This document shows positions 4,411-61,749 of a stretch of DNA of 64,000 nucleotides, one piece after another; position 1 is the stretch's first letter, and each line of letters opens with the position of its first letter. Under the pieces are notes generated by a model. That model did not search any database and was not told the DNA's origin. It was given only the letters and a program-made list of their open reading frames with translations. This DNA comes from Anadara kagoshimensis. Lineage: Eukaryota; Mollusca; Bivalvia; Arcoida; Arcidae. The stretch covers positions 9,042,635 to 9,106,634 of the forward strand of contig CM037864.1 in NCBI GenBank assembly GCA_021292105.1, given 5' to 3'. The translations under genes and the position numbers were made by a program.

Positions 4411-5600
4411 GATTTTTCGATTTGGATAAAATAGTATTCAGCAAGAACAAAGATTAACTTTAGGATCCATACATTATGAAAATCTACGGGAGTTCATAGC
4501 ATGTTTATTTTAATGTGGTTGTAAATATCAGTTTAATTTAAAATCAAACTAAATGTAAATATACAGACATCGATTAACAAAAAAAGGGATTTTGTTATTA
4601 AAAGATGAACTCGCTGACTGTCAAAATCAAGCAAGAATATGAATCAAAATAAGTTGATGATACCACATCTAAACAAGACAAAAGCAATGAAGTACTGATT
4701 ATAAAATTGCCGATGGTATGGTTATAGTATTATTGAAGGGCCCTCTATTTTACAATCCGTGATCTATAAAACGCACATTCAAAAAATAAAATGAACTTTA
4801 TATATAAAAAGTATTAAAAGTTAAAAAGGAAGCCTTATCATAAAAAAACTTGAAAGACTTACTTATATGAAATGTCAGATTTTAATTCCCTGGAACCTAA
4901 ATTAAAATATATTACAGCATTGGTAATAGCCAAAAACAATAAAAGGCACAGCATACACGGAAGTTAGGTACAAGAAAACAAGACAAGATAAACACATCTT
5001 GAGAGAATTTACAAGTATTTACAATAAAAAAAACTGATAAAAAATCAGACCCAATAATAAAATGTTCATGTAAATAGCAATGATAAAGCCGATTGTGCCA
5101 CTCTATTTTTATGTTTGCATTCGGAAATTTGCAAATGTAAATACATTAAATTTTCATATTTTAAGCATAAAACTTAATTAGAATTCGATCTGCAATGAAG
5201 ATGAACTATTGGGCACTTCAGATCAAATTAAGTATAATATATAAAAATCTACAAGATCTTTCAGTAATAAGGACACTTGATAGTTTTGAAACAGATTACT
5301 TATAAAAAAGTTCCATTACCCTCAAGAACTTTCTAGCTTGTATTATATAAGTTAAATTGTACTGAAATTAATGAATTTGAGAGTTGAAACATCTATATAT
5401 AAACGAATCTGCTTTATTAATGAAGAAAGTTTAGTAAATGGGGTGCCTTTAAATTCGTTTGAAGTAAAACATTTAAATAAAAATAAAAAGGAACATTGTT
5501 GCAACCAAGAACGCGTCACAACAAAACGGAACAAGACACAGTGATAAGTCACATATACTGATTATTTTGTAATTAAACGCAAACACAAGTATGCCGCCAA
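4411..5600. other. AT-rich stretch, nothing recognised
   Basis: No exon-like ORF, RNA gene or clear repeat structure was seen. Short ORFs here have no coding character. Confidence 0.5.
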
Positions 5601-5740: not shown

Positions 5741-6478
5741 CAAATACATGTATTATACAAATTAAGCCTGACCTTTGATATTCCCAGTAAGCAAGAAATG
5801 AAGAAACTTAAAAGGTCCATTTTGTTCTCTTCATGATGGATTTCAATCAATATATCTCATTTTGTTTTTGACGTTTGGAAATCAAAAAGACTTCCATTAG
5901 AGCAGCAAAGATTAACCTCCACAGAATCGTGAGATTATACAAGATATGTATTACGCAAAACCGGTGGGAATTTGTTGTTTATTAATTTAGTTTTATGTTT
6001 CTGTGATTATAAAACTTTGATGTAAAAATATTTTATCAGATTATGCCACTCCATTATAATGTTTGTGGATATTAATTGAAATCGGAAAAAATGATGAGCA
6101 TAATAATAACTTTAATTTCGTAACGTGTTTTGGTGGATTAGAATGAATACATTACATTTTCAGGTTTTTAACGAGCAAAGATTAATGAAAATGTTGAAAG
6201 TTTCCCTTTTATCTACACGGTTTTGTTAAAATGATTAAGTTTAGTTCTCGCGAACTTGCATTTGGTTGTAATGACAACTGTGATTGAGTTCATTTTTTGG
6301 AAAAATAAGGGTTTCAGTGTATGCATTTATGAAGCACTGGTTGTAAAATAAGTTAGGCGGGTAGGGCCCTCTAATCGAGGAATAAATTTACTATAATTGG
6401 TTGAGAATTAAATCATAACCAGTAGTTTTTTTGTTTTGTCTAGTTCGTCTACTTTAATTTAACGTTCATTGTTTGCAT

Positions 6479-40723: not shown

Positions 40724-42920
40724 TTTTTAGCTCACCTGACCGAAGGTCATGTGAGCTTATGGCATAGCGCAGCGTGTGTATGTGCGTGTGTGCGTGTGTG
40801 CGTGCGTGTGTGCGTGCGTGCGTGCGTCGTTAACACCTATTTTTGACTTCTCCTCTGAAACTACTGGACAGTTTTTAATGAAACTTTGTCAGAAGTATAT
40901 ATGGGCCGGTGCAATTCAGATTTGTTCGTGGCGTTGTCATGGCTACCATAACTAGGTCAAGGTGACCTAGGGGTGCAAAAATCTTAAAAATCTTCTTCTC
41001 CAAAATTACTGATTGGAGAAAAAAACTGATGTGATATTTGGCTTCTCTAGGGTCTTAAGCCTATAGTTTGTTCATTTTGTAAAATTCGGATAAAAAATAG
41101 GTTACGCGTTTTTGCGTTTAATTTTGAAAAAATCGTAAAATAGCTTCAAATTGTTATAACTTGACTATTTGACCAGATAATGACATGGGGTTTGCGGTTT
41201 TGACATCTTCTTGTTAGTATCTTCAAAATGAGGTCAAGGTCAATTGTGAAGGTCGTGACCTAATTTTTTTTACCTCTGATTCTAATTATTATCTCGAAAA
41301 CTATAAACTTTTTGTATAGTCATGTAAATTAGAATGTTGTAGGTATCGATACAACGATCATTTTGATGTATAGAAAAAGGTCATGGGTTCAAAGGTCAAG
41401 GTCACAGATGGGAAACAATACTGAAATGGTTAATTATCTCGAAAACTATAAACATTTTGTACAGGCATGTATATTAGAATGTTGTAGGTATTGATACAAC
41501 GATCATTTTGATGTATAGAAAAAGGTCATGGGTTTAAAGGTGAAGGTCACAGATGCGAAACAATACCGAGATGGTTAATTATCTCGAAAACTATAAACAT
41601 TTTGTACAGGCATGTATATTAGAATGTTGTAGGTATTGATACAACGATCATTTTGATGTATAGAAAAAGGTCATGGGTTTAAAGGTGAAGGTCACAGATG
41701 CGAAACAATACTGAAATGGTTAATTATCTCGAAAACTATAAACATTTTGTGTAGGCATGTATATTAGAATGTTGTAGGTATTGATACAACGATCATTTTG
41801 ATGTATAGATTAAGGTCATGGGTTCAAAGGTCAAGGTCACAGATGCGAAACAATACCGAAATTTTTAATGATCTTGAAAACTATAAACTTTTTGTATAGG
41901 CATGTATATTAGAATGTTGTAGGTATTGATACAACAATCATTTTGATGTATAGAAAAAGGTCATGGGTTCAAAGGTCAAGGTCACAGATGCGAAACAATA
42001 CCGAAATTTTTAATGATCTTGAAAACTATAAACTTTTTGTATAGGCATGTATATTAGAATGTTGTAGGTATTGATACAACAATCATTTTGATGTATAGAA
42101 AAAGGTCATGGGTTCAAAGGTCAAGGTCACAGATGCGAAACAATACCGAAATGGTTAATTATCTTGAAAACTATAAACTTTTTGTATAGGCATGTATATT
42201 AGAATGTTGTAGGTATTGATACAACAATCATTTTGATGTATAGAAAAAGGTCATGGGTTCAAAGGTCAAGGTCACAGATGCAAAACAATACCGAAATGGT
42301 TAATTATCTTGAAAACTATAAACTTTTTGTATAGACATGTATATTAGAATGTTGTAGGTATTGATACAACAATCATTTTGATGTATAGAAAAAGATCATG
42401 GGTTCAAAGGTCAAGGTCACAGATGCGAAACAATACCGAAATGGTTAATTATCTCGAAAACTATAAACTTTTTGTATAAGCATGTATATTAGAATGTTGT
42501 AGGTATTGATACAACAATCATTTTGATGTATGGAAAAAGGTTTATGGGTTCAAAGGTCAAGGTCACAGATGCGAAACAATACCGAAATGGTTAATTATCT
42601 TGAAAACTATAAACTTTTTGTATAGGCATGTATATTAGAATGTTGTAGGTATTGATACAACGATCATTTTGATGTATAGAAAAAGGTCATGGGTTCAGAG
42701 GTCAAGGTCACAGATATGAAACAATACTGAAATGGTTAATTATCTTGAAAACTATTAACTTTTTGTATAGGCATGTATACTAGAATGTTGTAGGTATTGA
42801 TACAACGGTTATCATGATGTAAAAAAAGTTGTTGGGGTTTAGTATTTATGTTTTCTTTAAATCTATCAGCTAGCCATTAGTTATCAGGTGAGCGTATCAG
42901 GCCCATGGGCCTCTTGTTTG
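40724..42920. mobile_element. Pearl-like/Helitron-like element with internal tandem array
   Basis: The left flank is TAGCTCACCTGACCGAAGG followed by a GTGTGC-rich microsatellite (40772-40830). The right flank is TCAGGTGAGCGTATCAGGCC then CATGGGCCTCTTG. Between them is a 145-bp satellite. The same GCTCACCTGAG / AAGAGGCC end occurs at 29149 and 29407. A tandem core between conserved flanks is known for bivalve pearl elements and related Helitron-type elements; the assignment is by architecture only. Confidence 0.6.
41240..42830. repeat. Satellite array, 145-bp period, about 11 copies
   Basis: GGTCATGGGTTCAAAGGTCA recurs at 41379, 41524, 41669, 41814, 41959, 42104, 42249, 42394 and onward at 145-bp steps. 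Copies are highly alike in the centre and drift at both edges. No reading frame spans units. Confidence 0.95.
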
Positions 42921-46600: not shown

Positions 46601-49600
46601 TATACAAAAAACATTGTATATAAATACCATGAAGAATAGGCCTACATATTGTTTGACAGTAAAATTATGGACCAATAATAAGGATGCAAATAATTTTAAC
46701 AAAATTATGCACTGGGATAAAGCTATTGACCTGCCTATATGCACACATCTTGAAGGGCCCGTATGTATACAGTCTAGCTTTGACAGGTCAGTATATATAC
46801 AGTTAAGCTTTGAGGAGCCAGTATGTATACAGTCTAGCTTTGACAGGTCAGTATATATACAGTTAAGCTTTGAGGAGCCAGTATGTATACAGTATATATC
46901 TTGACGGGCATGTATGTATACAGTATATATCTTGACGGGCCTGTATGTATACAGTATATATCTTGACGGGCCTGTATGTATACAGTATATATCTTGACGG
47001 GCATGTATGTATACAGTATATATCTTGACGGGCCAGTATGTATACAGTATATATCTTGACGGGCATGTTTGTATACAGTATATATCTTGACAGGCTTGTA
47101 CCTATACAGTATAGCTTTGACAGGCCAGTATGTATACAGTATATATCTTGACGGGCATGTATGTATACAGTATATATCTTGACGGGCATGTTTGTATACA
47201 GTATATATCTTGACGGGCATGTTTGTATACAGTATATATCTTGACGGGCCTGTATATATACAGTATAGCTTTGACAGGCCACTGTATACAGTATAAATCT
47301 TTATATGCCTGTATGTATACAGTATAGCTGTGATGGGCCAGTGCACAATTATGCATTGATCTTGATGGACAAATGTAAACTTCACTAAATCTTGACAGAG
47401 AAGTGTCAGTATGGTTTAGCTTTATATTATACAGTATATATATTGGGGAGCAGTTGAGGTATGATAAACATAAGTACATATAAGGCTACATAGATACTGC
47501 CATGCCAGAATAGACTGGCTTGATGGGAATACATGATATGTATGGTATAGCTTTTGACAGCCCAACATTGGTTTAACATGTTAAAACAACAATTATAAAA
47601 TTCAAACAATCCATAAGTTTACATGTAATGAATTTAAAGACATTAAGTGATGAGGATTCTTACTGCATCTGTAACTGAAACACTACTCATGTAGCTATTT
47701 AATTATGAAAATGCAAAACACGGTCATTTTTCTTCAAATGTTAATAGAAATCCAATATACAATGGCCATTCAGTTGTCCAAATCCATGTGTTCAAATGCC
47801 ACAGTATATGTTATAAATATATTTGAAAATATAATATCCAATGAAATGCATGTTAGCAAGCTAAAAATTTAAAAATACACTTAGCATTCCTAATATTCAC
47901 AAAAAATTACTTTAATTATAGCAAATGTCTCTTTTTCTTTTGTAAATCCATCTGATTCTGTAGTGAGATAGGCAAATGTTAAATAAGTAAATAATCAATT
48001 AAATAAATATATAAATAAATATATAAATAAATAAATTTATTTTTATAAATAAATAAATAAATAAATAGCCATCAAATCTAAAATGTGCCAATATTAATGC
48101 ACATGGAATTGGTTTTTTTATTTCTTCAGTTTGTCAAACTGTGCCATATAGGCCTTGTCTTTGTTCACAATGCATAAAATCAATCCCTTGTGTGATAATG
48201 GGAATTTTTTGTCATCTCAGAGAGAGAGAGAGAGAGAGAGTATGGTGCTGAGAGAGAGAGAGAGTATATGGTGCTCAAGTCAGGACCAGGCATTGAACTG
48301 GAATACAGATTTTAAACAAATTGGTGGGGCTTCAGTTAGGCAAGGCAAAGACTTCTAAAGACAGAAAGTTCTATGCAAGACAAGAGAGATAACTCTCATT
48401 TTCGTAAATGGCTCTTTGACACTGACCAATGGAATACGTAAATTAACCGTTTAGTTCGTCGAATGATTTATCAACATACAGTAAAATTTGATTATGTGTA
48501 TTTTTATGAAAGAATTTGAAATCGTTATCACGTGAGTGTTATTAAAATTAGTTGCAACGTCATTTGAAACTTGATATTGAAGCATCGATCATCGCGGGGG
48601 CAGCCATATTTGTTTTCATTGACAACCAAATGTACTACCAAGTCTTTCGGGTTTTTAAGATATTAACAGGTCGTGCTCAGAAACCATTCTTAATTGAATT
48701 TAATTCTAATTGTGTGATGTCACATTCTACACAATATAAAGTGGTAATTTTGTGTACACAAAATTCGTCCAAGTTTTAAAGATTGTCGAAAATTTTGGGG
48801 CAATTGCGAGAAGAAATTGATTGTCATCAAGAAATCCGAAAAATGTGTAAATAACAGTATCTTATCGCTAAATTGAAAATTAAATCTCAAACTGTTGTTT
48901 ATTCAGCATATAATTCAAAAGTTTCATCGATAAACTTTACTTCATTATGTCCCAATATAGGTTTAAAAACGGGTGTCTTTTCGCCCCTCAGACACTTGTC
49001 AAAAAGTAATCCCAAATTTCCATACGGCGGAAGGATACAAAATTTATAAAGCCGAAACACAATTTGTGGAAATTGCCGACTTGGCGTTCCGAGTGGTTAT
49101 TCCGGGAATTTATGACGTTGCCGTTTTCCAAAATGTTCCGCACAAACGTTAAGAGGTAATGACCACGTAAAACAGCGGCGAACCCCATTGCAACAAACTT
49201 ATTGACAGTTTGTAATTGCAAAAAAAAAATTGCAGATGTTTCAATATGTTTGGATTCATATTAGTATAGCCATCATGTCGCTATGATGTATATGTAGCCG
49301 TGAATGACATGTCTAAATATTCTTTACGGGCTCTAAAACTCTATATTGCTGGAGTAGTATAAGATGATGCCACATTGGCTTCATCTCAATCATCCGTATT
49401 TTATATCACCGTTCGTACTATAAGGGTATGGTTTCTACGCGATTGTAAATACTCTTATGTTGTTTTAAAAACAGTCCCACCTCTTATCAGAGTGTTTATC
49501 AGTATGTCAACAATGTTAACTGAAAATGACTGTGTCTACACTTGTAAAAAGACGCCGATTAATTATTTTTACAATGGTCTAATGCACGTATAGTACTTAC

Positions 49601-59035: not shown

Positions 59036-59657
59036 TTTCATTAAATTTTAAAATTAAAGGTCCTGACAAATTAACCTGTCACAGCTATTTAATAACATCT
59101 GTCTATATTTCCGCTAACAAAAAAACTAGATAATAAATGTCTGTATGGTTGAAAAATAATCCTTCAAAAATTGAGCTAAACTCCGACCGGAAGTTTAGAA
59201 AAATAGCCATTAAGGGGGAAACTACTCTAAATAAAATCTCTAACAAACATTCCCTTAAAAATAGTTCCTCTATAGTCCGTTTTAAAATAAATATTTTTCA
59301 TTATAATGTTGGTACGAAAGCCTATTAAGCTCATGAATAAAAAAAAAAATAAAAGGCGTAATAACGCGAAATAAAGGCATTATAATGCGAAAAAAGGCGT
59401 TATAACGCCTTTAGAAAGGCGTAATAACGCGAATTGAAAGGTGTTATAACGCGAATTAAAAGGCATTATAACGCGAAATAAAGGCGTAATAACGCGAATT
59501 GAAAGGCGTTATAACACGAAATAAAGGCGTAATAACGCGAATTGAAAGACGGAATAACGCGAAATAAAGGCGTACTAACGCGAAATTAAGATGCCTACCA
59601 TAATGATGTGGAGGTCCTGGGGTTTAATTTCTAACCCCCCCTTTACATATATATTAA

Positions 59658-59661
<4 letters not shown>

Positions 59662-59702
<41 letters not shown>

Positions 59703-59727
59703 GTGTGTGTGTGTGTATGTGTGTGTT
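59662..59727. repeat. (TG)n microsatellite within family Z
   Basis: A long TG run; its shorter complement is at 60728-60752 in the inner copy. Confidence 0.9.
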
Positions 59728-60010
59728 TCCTGCATAACTATATGTTATGTAATAAGCTGTTTTATATGTATTTATTCTATGAAAATTCAAAAACTGCACG
59801 TCAGCCGATCCTGCGCTGAAATGAACATACTTTTTCGGAAAAACATAAAGTAAGGCTTCTTTCCAATGTTAAAGTTTTTTCATAAAGAGTATAATTTTAT
59901 TTATGGGGATAGAATTCTTTGGAGTAATTTGAAATATAAACATTGATAAACATTGGCAATATACACATGGCTACATGTATTTATTAAAAAGTTCCTGTCC
60001 AATTGTCAAC

Positions 60011-61199
60011 TACGAAAGCCTATTAAGCTCACGAATAAAAAAAATTAAAAGGCGTAATAACGCGAAATAAAGGCGTTATAATGCGAAAAAAGGCGTTATA
60101 ACGCGAATTGAAAGGCGTTATAACGCGAAATAAAGGCGTAATAACGCGAATTGAAAGGCGTTACAACGCGAAATAAAGGCGTAATAACGCGAATTGAAAG
60201 GCGTTATAACGCGAAATAAAGGCGTTATAACGCCTTTAGAAAGGCGTAATAACGCGAATCGAAAGGCATTATAACGCCTTTAGAAAGGCGTAATAACGCC
60301 TTTTTGTCTATATATAGAGCAGTCACTTGAGAATGTTAACAACCCTCACCACAAACAGACTGGCTTTAGTTTGAAAAGCTTAAGGCAACTGTAGATCTAT
60401 TCATACTAAGATGTCACAGGTGTCATTTAATCATTGTTAAAAGTTAGCGATTGACAATTGGACAGGAACTTTTTAATAAATAGCCATGTGTACATTGCCA
60501 ATGTTTATCAATGTTTATATTTCAGATTACTTAAAAGATTTCCATCCCCATATATAAATGATACTCTTTATGAAAAAACAACACTTTAACATTGAAAAGA
60601 AACCTTTCTTTCTGTTTTACTGAAATAGTATGTTCATTTCAGCGCAGGATCGGATGAGGTGCAGTTTTTTTCATAGAATAAATACATATAAAGCAGCTTA
60701 TTACATTACATATAGTTGTGCAGGAAACACACACACACATACACACACACATTTTAATATGTATGTAAAGTGTGTGTGTGGGGGGTGGGGTGGGGGTAGA
60801 GATTAAACCCCAGGACCTCCACATCATTATGGAAGGCATCTTAACTTCGCGTTATAACGCCTTTCAATTCGCGTAATTATGCCTTTCTAAAGGCGTTATA
60901 ACGCCTTTATTTCGCGTTATTACGCCTTTCAATTCGCGTTATTACGCCTATATTTCGCGTTATTACGCCTTTATTTCGCGTTATAACGCCTTTCAATTCG
61001 CGTTATTACGCCTTTTTTCGCATTATAACGCCTTTATTTCGCGTTATTACGCCTTTATTTCGCGTTATAACGCCTTTCAATTCGCGTTATTACGCCTTTC
61101 TAAAGGCGTTATAACGCCTTTTTCGCATTATAACGCCTTTATTTCGCGTTATTACGCCTTTTAATTTTTTTTTATTTATGAGCTTAATAGGCTTTCGTA
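60011..61199. mobile_element. Inner family Z element inserted in the outer one, opposite orientation
   Basis: TACGAAAG...CTTTCGTA ends, perfect 6-bp target duplication GTCAAC (60005-60010 and 61200-61205), subterminal arrays at 60049-60304 and 60848-61170. Its unique interior (60305-60845) is the reverse complement of the two outer pieces (59590-60004 and 61206-61372) joined at the insertion point, so the inner copy shows what the empty outer site looked like (60450-60455, ATTGAC versus GTTGAC). Confidence 0.88.
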
Positions 61200-61749
61200 G
61201 TCAACAGCTAAGTTTAATAATGATAAAATGGCATTTGTGACATCTTAGTATGAATAAATCAAGTTTTAATCAATTGCAGTTGCCTTAAGCTGTCTGTTTG
61301 TGGTGAGGGTTGTAAACCTAGATAGGGAAATATTCTCCAGGGAAGTGACTGCTCTATAAATAGACAAAAAATGCATTATAACGCCTTTCACTTCGCGTTA
61401 TTACGCCTTTCAATTCGCGTTATAATGCCTTTCAATTCGCGTTATTACGCCTTTCGAAAGGCGTTATAACGCCTTTTAATTCGCGTTATTACGCCTTTAT
61501 TTCGCGTTATAATGCCTTTTAATTCGCGTTATAACGCCTTTCAATTCGCATTATTACGCCTTTATTTTGCGTTATAACGCCTTTCAATTCGCATTATTAC
61601 GCCTTTATTTCGCGTTATAACGCCTTTCAATTCGCGTTATTACGCCTTTATTTCGCGTTATTACGCCTTTCTAAAGGCGTTATAACGCCTTTATTTCGCG
61701 TTATTACGCCTTTTAATTTTTTTTTTCATGAGCTTAATAGGCTTTCGTT

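Follow-up and report, generated by a model that had tools for sequence, protein, structure and literature searches.

What are the four arrays of short, CG-rich repeat units that lie between positions 59313 and 61748 of a 64,000-nucleotide stretch of the Anadara kagoshimensis genome, and what do they do? This stretch, hereafter the window, is C8:9042635-9106634 in a genome of 1.115 Gb in 36 contigs. A first-pass annotation made from the letters alone had read the arrays as the ends of one terminal inverted repeat (TIR) element inserted in inverse orientation into another of the same family. It had suggested that the arrays might be transposase-binding sites, methylation targets or seeds of cruciforms.

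We observed that coordinates and alignment both agree with a nested insertion. Four arrays are present in two orientations, with units of 21-22 bp, and the features fall as follows.

59313..60004, minus relative to the inner copy: outer copy, part left of the insertion, from alignment with the inner copy
59313..59332, plus: 20-bp TIR of the outer copy, TACGAAAGCCTATTAAGCTC
59354..59581, plus: array of the outer copy, 11 units of 21-22 bp, units read on the plus strand; converted from element coordinates
60005..60010, no strand: target site duplication GTCAAC, left
60011..61199, plus: inner, younger copy, a 1189-bp non-autonomous TIR element
60011..60030, plus: left 20-bp TIR of the inner copy
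60051..60300, plus: left array of the inner copy, 12 units; unit 1 begins at element base 41
60301..60848, plus: non-coding core of the inner copy; TATA-like TCTATATATAGAG adjoins the left array; CA/GT run
60849..61159, minus: right array of the inner copy, 15 units, inverted with respect to the left array
61180..61199, minus: right 20-bp TIR of the inner copy
61200..61205, no strand: target site duplication GTCAAC, right
61206..61748, minus: outer copy, part right of the insertion, from alignment with the inner copy
61372..61710, minus: array of the outer copy, 16 units; converted from element coordinates
61730..61748, minus: decayed right terminus of the outer copy, ending CTTTCGT, final A lost or changed

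The 20-bp TIRs of the inner element are perfect at both ends (TACGAAAG...CTTTCGTA), as is the GTCAAC target site duplication (TSD) that flanks it. Removal of the element together with one GTCAAC leaves an older copy of 1241-1242 bp in the opposite orientation. Because this outer copy and the inner copy align gap-free across the place of insertion, the inner copy supplies the empty site, just as had been proposed. The two lengths agree, as had also been noted, but the sequences of the copies differ (986 of 1081 aligned bases equal), and so do the unit numbers of their arrays. The right terminus of the outer copy has also decayed (CTTTCGT then TTTGG, against a left flank of TGTTGG), and therefore its own duplication is not intact. 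Identity to the majority core of 29 copies, a set that includes both window copies, was 98.7% for the inner copy and 89.2% for the outer. Elsewhere the window holds two other tandem arrays, at 41288-42828 (145 bp x 10.6, 95% matches) and at 46747-47326 (31 bp x 19).

Perhaps the four arrays were simply a mis-join of the assembly? The 14-bp palindrome GGCGTTATAACGCC occurs at 1104 sites genome-wide and the exact 20-bp end at 763 (385 and 378 on the two strands); since the reversed controls gave 0 for each, chance is excluded. Among 100 listed end places, covering contigs C1 to part of C3, we counted neighboring ends in inverted order as further pairs. Unpaired end places were left out of the duplication score, and five of these (L070-L074) were fetched with longer flanks. 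Inverted end pairs recurred at 34 further places, 33 of them independent, as L036/L037 shares its site with L035; a mis-join is hence not needed to explain the arrays. A perfect 6-bp duplication was found at 31 of the 33 independent sites, the window excluded. The imperfect duplications were those of L056, where 5 of 6 bases are equal, and L064, equal after a one-base shift. TA..TA termini were present in the inner copy and in 34/34 further pairs, all chosen by the exact 20-bp end, so that conservation of the 20 terminal bases is by construction. We conclude that the expected genome-wide family, with its 20-bp ends and 6-bp duplications, exists.

This family is young, because pairwise identity among the cores, compared for 29 copies, is 95.7% at the median (84.1-99.1%). 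Their majority core sequence contains no long open frame, and a transposase gene is encoded by none of the window-family copies that we fetched. Three long copies were considered as transposase carriers and rejected: L035 (7.6 kb), L036/L037 (15.1 kb) and L038 (3.5 kb) are short copies with other DNA inserted, in which no transposase was seen. By our reading of its frames, the L036 insert carries a LINE endonuclease and reverse transcriptase. L035 (C1:47704051-47712045) and L036/L037 (C1:48798533-48814030) lie 1.1 Mb apart, with the same ten bases on each side and the duplication GGGAAT in both, and are probably a segmental duplication of one insertion; LINE frames were seen in only one of the two.

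In all 35 copies together, 686 of the 763 steps from one unit to the next measured 21 or 22 bp. Of the 828 units called, 260 have the 14-bp core GGCGTAATAACGCG, 178 have GGCGTTATAACGCG and 102 have the perfect palindrome GGCGTTATAACGCC, these being the three most frequent cores; strand signs of units are uninformative, as perfect palindromes score equally on both strands. Where two separate arrays could be distinguished (30 copies), the left contained 6-18 units (median 12) and the right 5-22 (median 14). At either end of the element, the outermost units follow the order a-m-P-a-t toward the interior, each position being found in 16-23 of 29-30 copies. The inner edge of the left array also recurs, its last unit being identical in 17/29 copies, while the array interior varies. 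Hence, the outer units form part of the inverted repeat, and it is the length of the interior that drifts.

Were the arrays methylated in the germ line, their CpG pairs should have decayed. In 60 aligned ends, transitions affected 33 of 1769 CpG bases (1.9%) and 43 of 1409 other C/G bases (3.1%), the reverse of methylation decay, and so the mutation spectrum of the ends lends no support to germ-line methylation of the arrays. Counts in the 29 cores (7/200 versus 128/5120) are too few to judge. The idea that the arrays are methylation targets is thus not supported.

Which transposase might move such an element? IS3EU elements have TA..TA ends and a TSD that is usually 6 bp, according to the accessible part of PMC10045372; for TET-bearing fungal IS3EU families, the corresponding part of PMC12730594 gives a 6-bp TSD and TAYGG..CCRTA ends, the extended terminus being stated for some fungal families and not for the whole superfamily. 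The window family has the 6-bp duplication, at the inner copy (GTCAAC) and at the 31 further sites, the outer copy being decayed; its ends read TACGA, one base off TAYGG. Pfam PF24764 is a model that, we presumed, might cover IS3EU-type transposases. When the genome was searched with this profile, 150 of 224 candidates were scored and 129 of them matched, several sets of equally scoring open frames among them; in control genomes 1/14 matched, below cut-off. Two copies were fetched for each of families I-IV, and within each family the two were 99.0-99.8% alike. All four proteins scanned matched PF24764, one of them with a SAM domain as well, and they matched IS481 and/or IS3 models below the curated cut-offs. 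They share D, D and E alignment positions; which of these would be catalytic is our reading of the alignment. Weak helix-turn-helix matches, below cut-off, lie in the N-terminal parts of two of the four, and it is plausible that they mark a dimeric reader of palindromes. Some PF24764 matches in the genome are split, for example those at C14:54986203 and C14:54987513.

Families IV and VI have the termini TACGG...CCGTA, TACGG at both ends, and families I and II, read at the 5' end only, begin with TATGG. Of these families, IV is the nearest model for the window element. Its 24-bp end, TACGGTGGCTGATTTAGGACACGC, occurs 13 + 11 times at <=1 mismatch (reversed, 0), and in ten cases a distance of 665-694 bp separates this end from the PF24764 match that it flanks. 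Eight family IV pairs were read, spanning 8.3-10.0 kb in seven and 1.6 kb in one; the 6-bp TSD was perfect in 7/8 and, in the remaining pair, equal after one extra base. Family VI spans 13.7-14.8 kb, with a perfect 6-bp TSD in 4/4 pairs read. At up to 10 kb and up to 14.8 kb, these two families far exceed the needs of a single transposase.

We wondered if transposons of this kind carry arrays too. Arrays of 21-22 or 43 bp lay beside the ORF in five of eight PF24764 families (I, IV, VI and those of L092 and L087). The tandem repeats program TRF gave family I a 21-bp period and 14 units, adjoining the ORF, and family IV a 21-bp period and 10.5-11.5 units, ending just before the transposase ATG. 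Beside the ORF, no 21-bp array passed the filter in family II, in family III, whose ends lie beyond the fetched copies, or in the L086 family; the 5' end of family II has a 53-bp x 2 repeat and a weak 22-bp x 2.3 repeat. The family II copy L079 also contains, at 5164-5259, a distinct array of 21-bp period that extends to a TACGGTGGCTG-type terminus. This array, present in L083 too, has GGAGCGCTCC palindromes and reaches CAGCCACCGTA; the stretch 5164-5289 of L079 is perhaps an embedded element of a further, family IV-like family.

As a prediction test, we took seven further PF24764 matches and for each picked, by coordinate and unread, the 481-bp stretch that lies 420-900 bp upstream. Six of the seven held 21- or 43-bp arrays (by family, 3/4 of the new ones): L087 has 43-bp x 4.6, L088 is family IV again, L089, L090 and L091 are one new family (VI), L092 is another, and L086 has none. 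The same filter found in these loci one unrelated 40-bp x 2.8 repeat, in L088, and, in 126,246 bp of other genomic DNA used as a control, one 61-bp x 2 repeat besides the window-family arrays. The only family IV copy read at both ends, on contig C6, has inverted arrays of CTCGAGCGCTCG units, with 10 units on the side of the gene and 7 on the opposite side. Unit palindromy exceeded that of 97-99% of shuffled units in the window family, families IV and VI and L092, in a test that is generous, as dominant units were entered by hand; by the same test, none was found for family I, L087 or the array inside L079. The four palindromic array types, the window's included, are unrelated in sequence.

Perhaps it is the shape of the DNA that matters, with cruciforms or hairpins recognized by the transposition machinery or by repair, as in foldback behavior, and with no sequence-specific binding? 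The arms are inverted repeats, long and built of tandem units around a middle domain, which is a foldback-type architecture. As a single strand, the left end folds at -75.2 kcal/mol against a shuffle mean of -40.7 (z -10.45). However, any inverted array of near-palindromes is expected to fold strongly, whatever its use. Moreover, two array families have non-palindromic units, and cruciforms do not need constant 21-22-bp phasing. We consider recognition by shape very unlikely.

We also measured where the arrays begin relative to the terminus. In the inner window copy, unit 1 opens at base 41 of one end and base 42 of the other; the corresponding bases are 41/41/41 for three family IV ends and 41/40 for two family VI copies, and the steps that follow are mostly 21 bp in all three families. 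Since the unit start is at about 41 and the palindromes have centers of their own (GGCGTTA/TAACGCC, TCGAGC/GCTCGA and TTCGTTA/TCTCGAA, the last with an imperfect middle), the first palindrome center falls 47.5 bp in from the terminus, to within 1 bp, in the window family, family IV and family VI, unrelated as their sequences are. The family I array is outside this common register, at ~375 bp from the terminus and not 41.

This register bears on two other explanations. Short repeats near the ends might grow neutrally by slippage and be carried along, as in the case of satellite-seeding foldback elements. Unit numbers of 6-18 and 5-22 among 30 copies would fit such growth, as would L081 and L085, one unit apart (10 versus 11), and the accessible text of PMC4079207 describes satellites from foldback repeats. 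Yet a period common to several families of unrelated sequence, an equal register in three families and recurrent outer units together call for selection. We therefore give neutral expansion little credence.

Alternatively, the arrays could be promoter or enhancer repeats through which a host factor, or the transposase itself as a repressor, controls the transposase gene, retained in non-autonomous copies only by descent. Several observations point that way: the family IV array stops just before the transposase ATG, arrays of other families are upstream of the ORF, that of family I lies by the ORF and away from the terminus, and the left array of the window element adjoins a TATA-like stretch. 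However, family IV arrays (one copy) are inverted at both ends and so are also present away from the gene, non-coding copies keep their arrays, in which the order of the outer units recurs at either end, and the register to the terminus is equal in three families. Control of the transposase gene is thus an unlikely primary role, though not a negligible one, and an array beside a gene may serve transcription too.

If the window family belongs with PF24764 transposons, an autonomous partner with TACGAAAG ends might be expected. The first-pass annotation had called for such a copy, and none was found when 272 of the 763 end places were compared with 95 of the 129 PF24764 rows, the 34 left out being mostly second gene pieces or the weakest matches. 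Nothing lay within 6 kb; the nearest PF24764 places were 6.1 and 11.0 kb from a window-type end. PF24764-like fragments at L071 were rejected as the transposase of a window-type copy, as they lie outside that copy's right end in exon-like blocks. These gene pieces (4970-5164 and 5908-6108), in separate blocks adjoining the element, are possibly an intron-bearing or host-adopted relative. Genome searches with PF13683 (150/787 candidates scored) and NF033516 (73/1349 scored) were swamped by apparent retroelement integrases; from our reading of the frames, L076 and L077 look Ty3/Gypsy-like and L075 Polinton-like. Of the matches to the bacterial IS3 transposase model (73/1349 scored), the top four are all on contig C22 (93277-94239, 126520-127380, 485272-486129 and 335875-336408), in frames broken only by TGA, 3-4 times each, as if TGA were Trp. 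Contig C22 is probably a mollicute symbiont contig.

Could the window element then be of another superfamily with 6-bp duplications, its likeness to the PF24764 families being convergent? None of the 272 TACGAAAG ends compared has a linked transposase, and the fifth base differs from TAYGG. Against this, TA..TA ends, a 6-bp TSD, arrays that begin at base 41 and palindromic units at 21-22-bp spacing jointly match families IV and VI. We regard such convergence as having only a slim chance of being correct.

We think it likely instead that the window holds two nested copies of a young, non-autonomous IS3EU-type element, whose arrays would be repeated transposase-binding sites in two-turn phase; in the same joint judgment, the window family groups with IS3EU despite its TACGA end and with no PF24764 partner among the 272 of 763 ends. 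Binding sites are the most likely use for arrays that are inverted at both ends, fixed in register to the cut, recurrent in their outer units, kept in non-coding copies and built from a family-specific unit at a common spacing. As integrase-type families have arrays of different palindromes placed equally far from the terminus, binding appears to be the best supported of the three uses first suggested, judged from sequence comparison.

Under this model, an IS3EU-type transposase (IS3/IS481-like, integrase-type) supplied in trans would move the non-coding element. The palindromes would be putative binding sites for a dimeric helix-turn-helix part of the enzyme, and a spacing of 21-22 bp, or two helical turns, would put them on one helix face, where many dimers could bind together and help to pair the two ends. 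Unequal exchange would let array length drift while the outer units stay fixed. Each family would have its own palindrome, so that a transposase recognizes only its own ends. More tentatively, and with somewhat less than an even chance in our estimate, the rule may extend to IS3EU-type transposons at least in this animal lineage: the first palindrome centered 47.5 bp from the cleavage site whatever its sequence, a 21-22-bp phase, the transposase a long oligomer on each end, and a private lock-and-key palindrome for each family. If this is true, short non-coding copies are tied to their helper by the palindrome alone. IS3EU is known mainly from database entries, as far as the accessible literature describes it; if its ends are phased palindrome arrays, then the sequence, number and phase of the binding sites could be read from genomes. 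Non-autonomous copies could be matched to transposases, and the co-evolution of DNA-binding domain and site could be traced over many young families in one genome.

How does the element compare with known systems? Its TA..TA termini and 6-bp duplication are those given for IS3EU/GingerRoot in the accessible parts of PMC10045372 and PMC12730594, and the PF24764 families of this genome resemble IS3EU in matching IS481 and/or IS3 models below cut-off and in having ends that start with TAYGG wherever an end was seen. Window copies differ in being non-coding and ending in TACGA. Both IS3EU and repeat-built TIRs, the latter in other superfamilies, are already known. The initial impression that no described family has such ends therefore stands only in part: termini and duplication are as for IS3EU and repeat-built TIRs occur in foldback elements and Galileo, but a limited literature search, Repbase entries not covered, found no earlier report of phased palindromic arrays in IS3EU. 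Marine bivalves have other short non-autonomous elements with tandem repeats, namely tandem-repeat MITEs and Helentron types, as the accessible accounts describe them. The repeats of these elements are central and longer, and Helentron types have neither TIRs nor a duplication.

The foldback elements (FB, Tetris) and Galileo are closer in build, with long TIRs of tandem repeats, variable in number, around a middle part (accessible text of PMC4079207 and PMC3573991). Mutator-kind foldback elements make 8-10-bp duplications, against the 6 bp of the window family. Tetris has such duplications and ~220-bp repeats (PMC4079207, same text) and Galileo F has ~210-bp repeats, whereas the units of the window family are palindromes of 21-22 bp. 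In Galileo, the TIR repeats hold secondary transposase-binding sites (PMC4079207 and PMC3573991, accessible parts), and tandem repeats with extra binding sites are there termed a convergent trait (PMC3573991).
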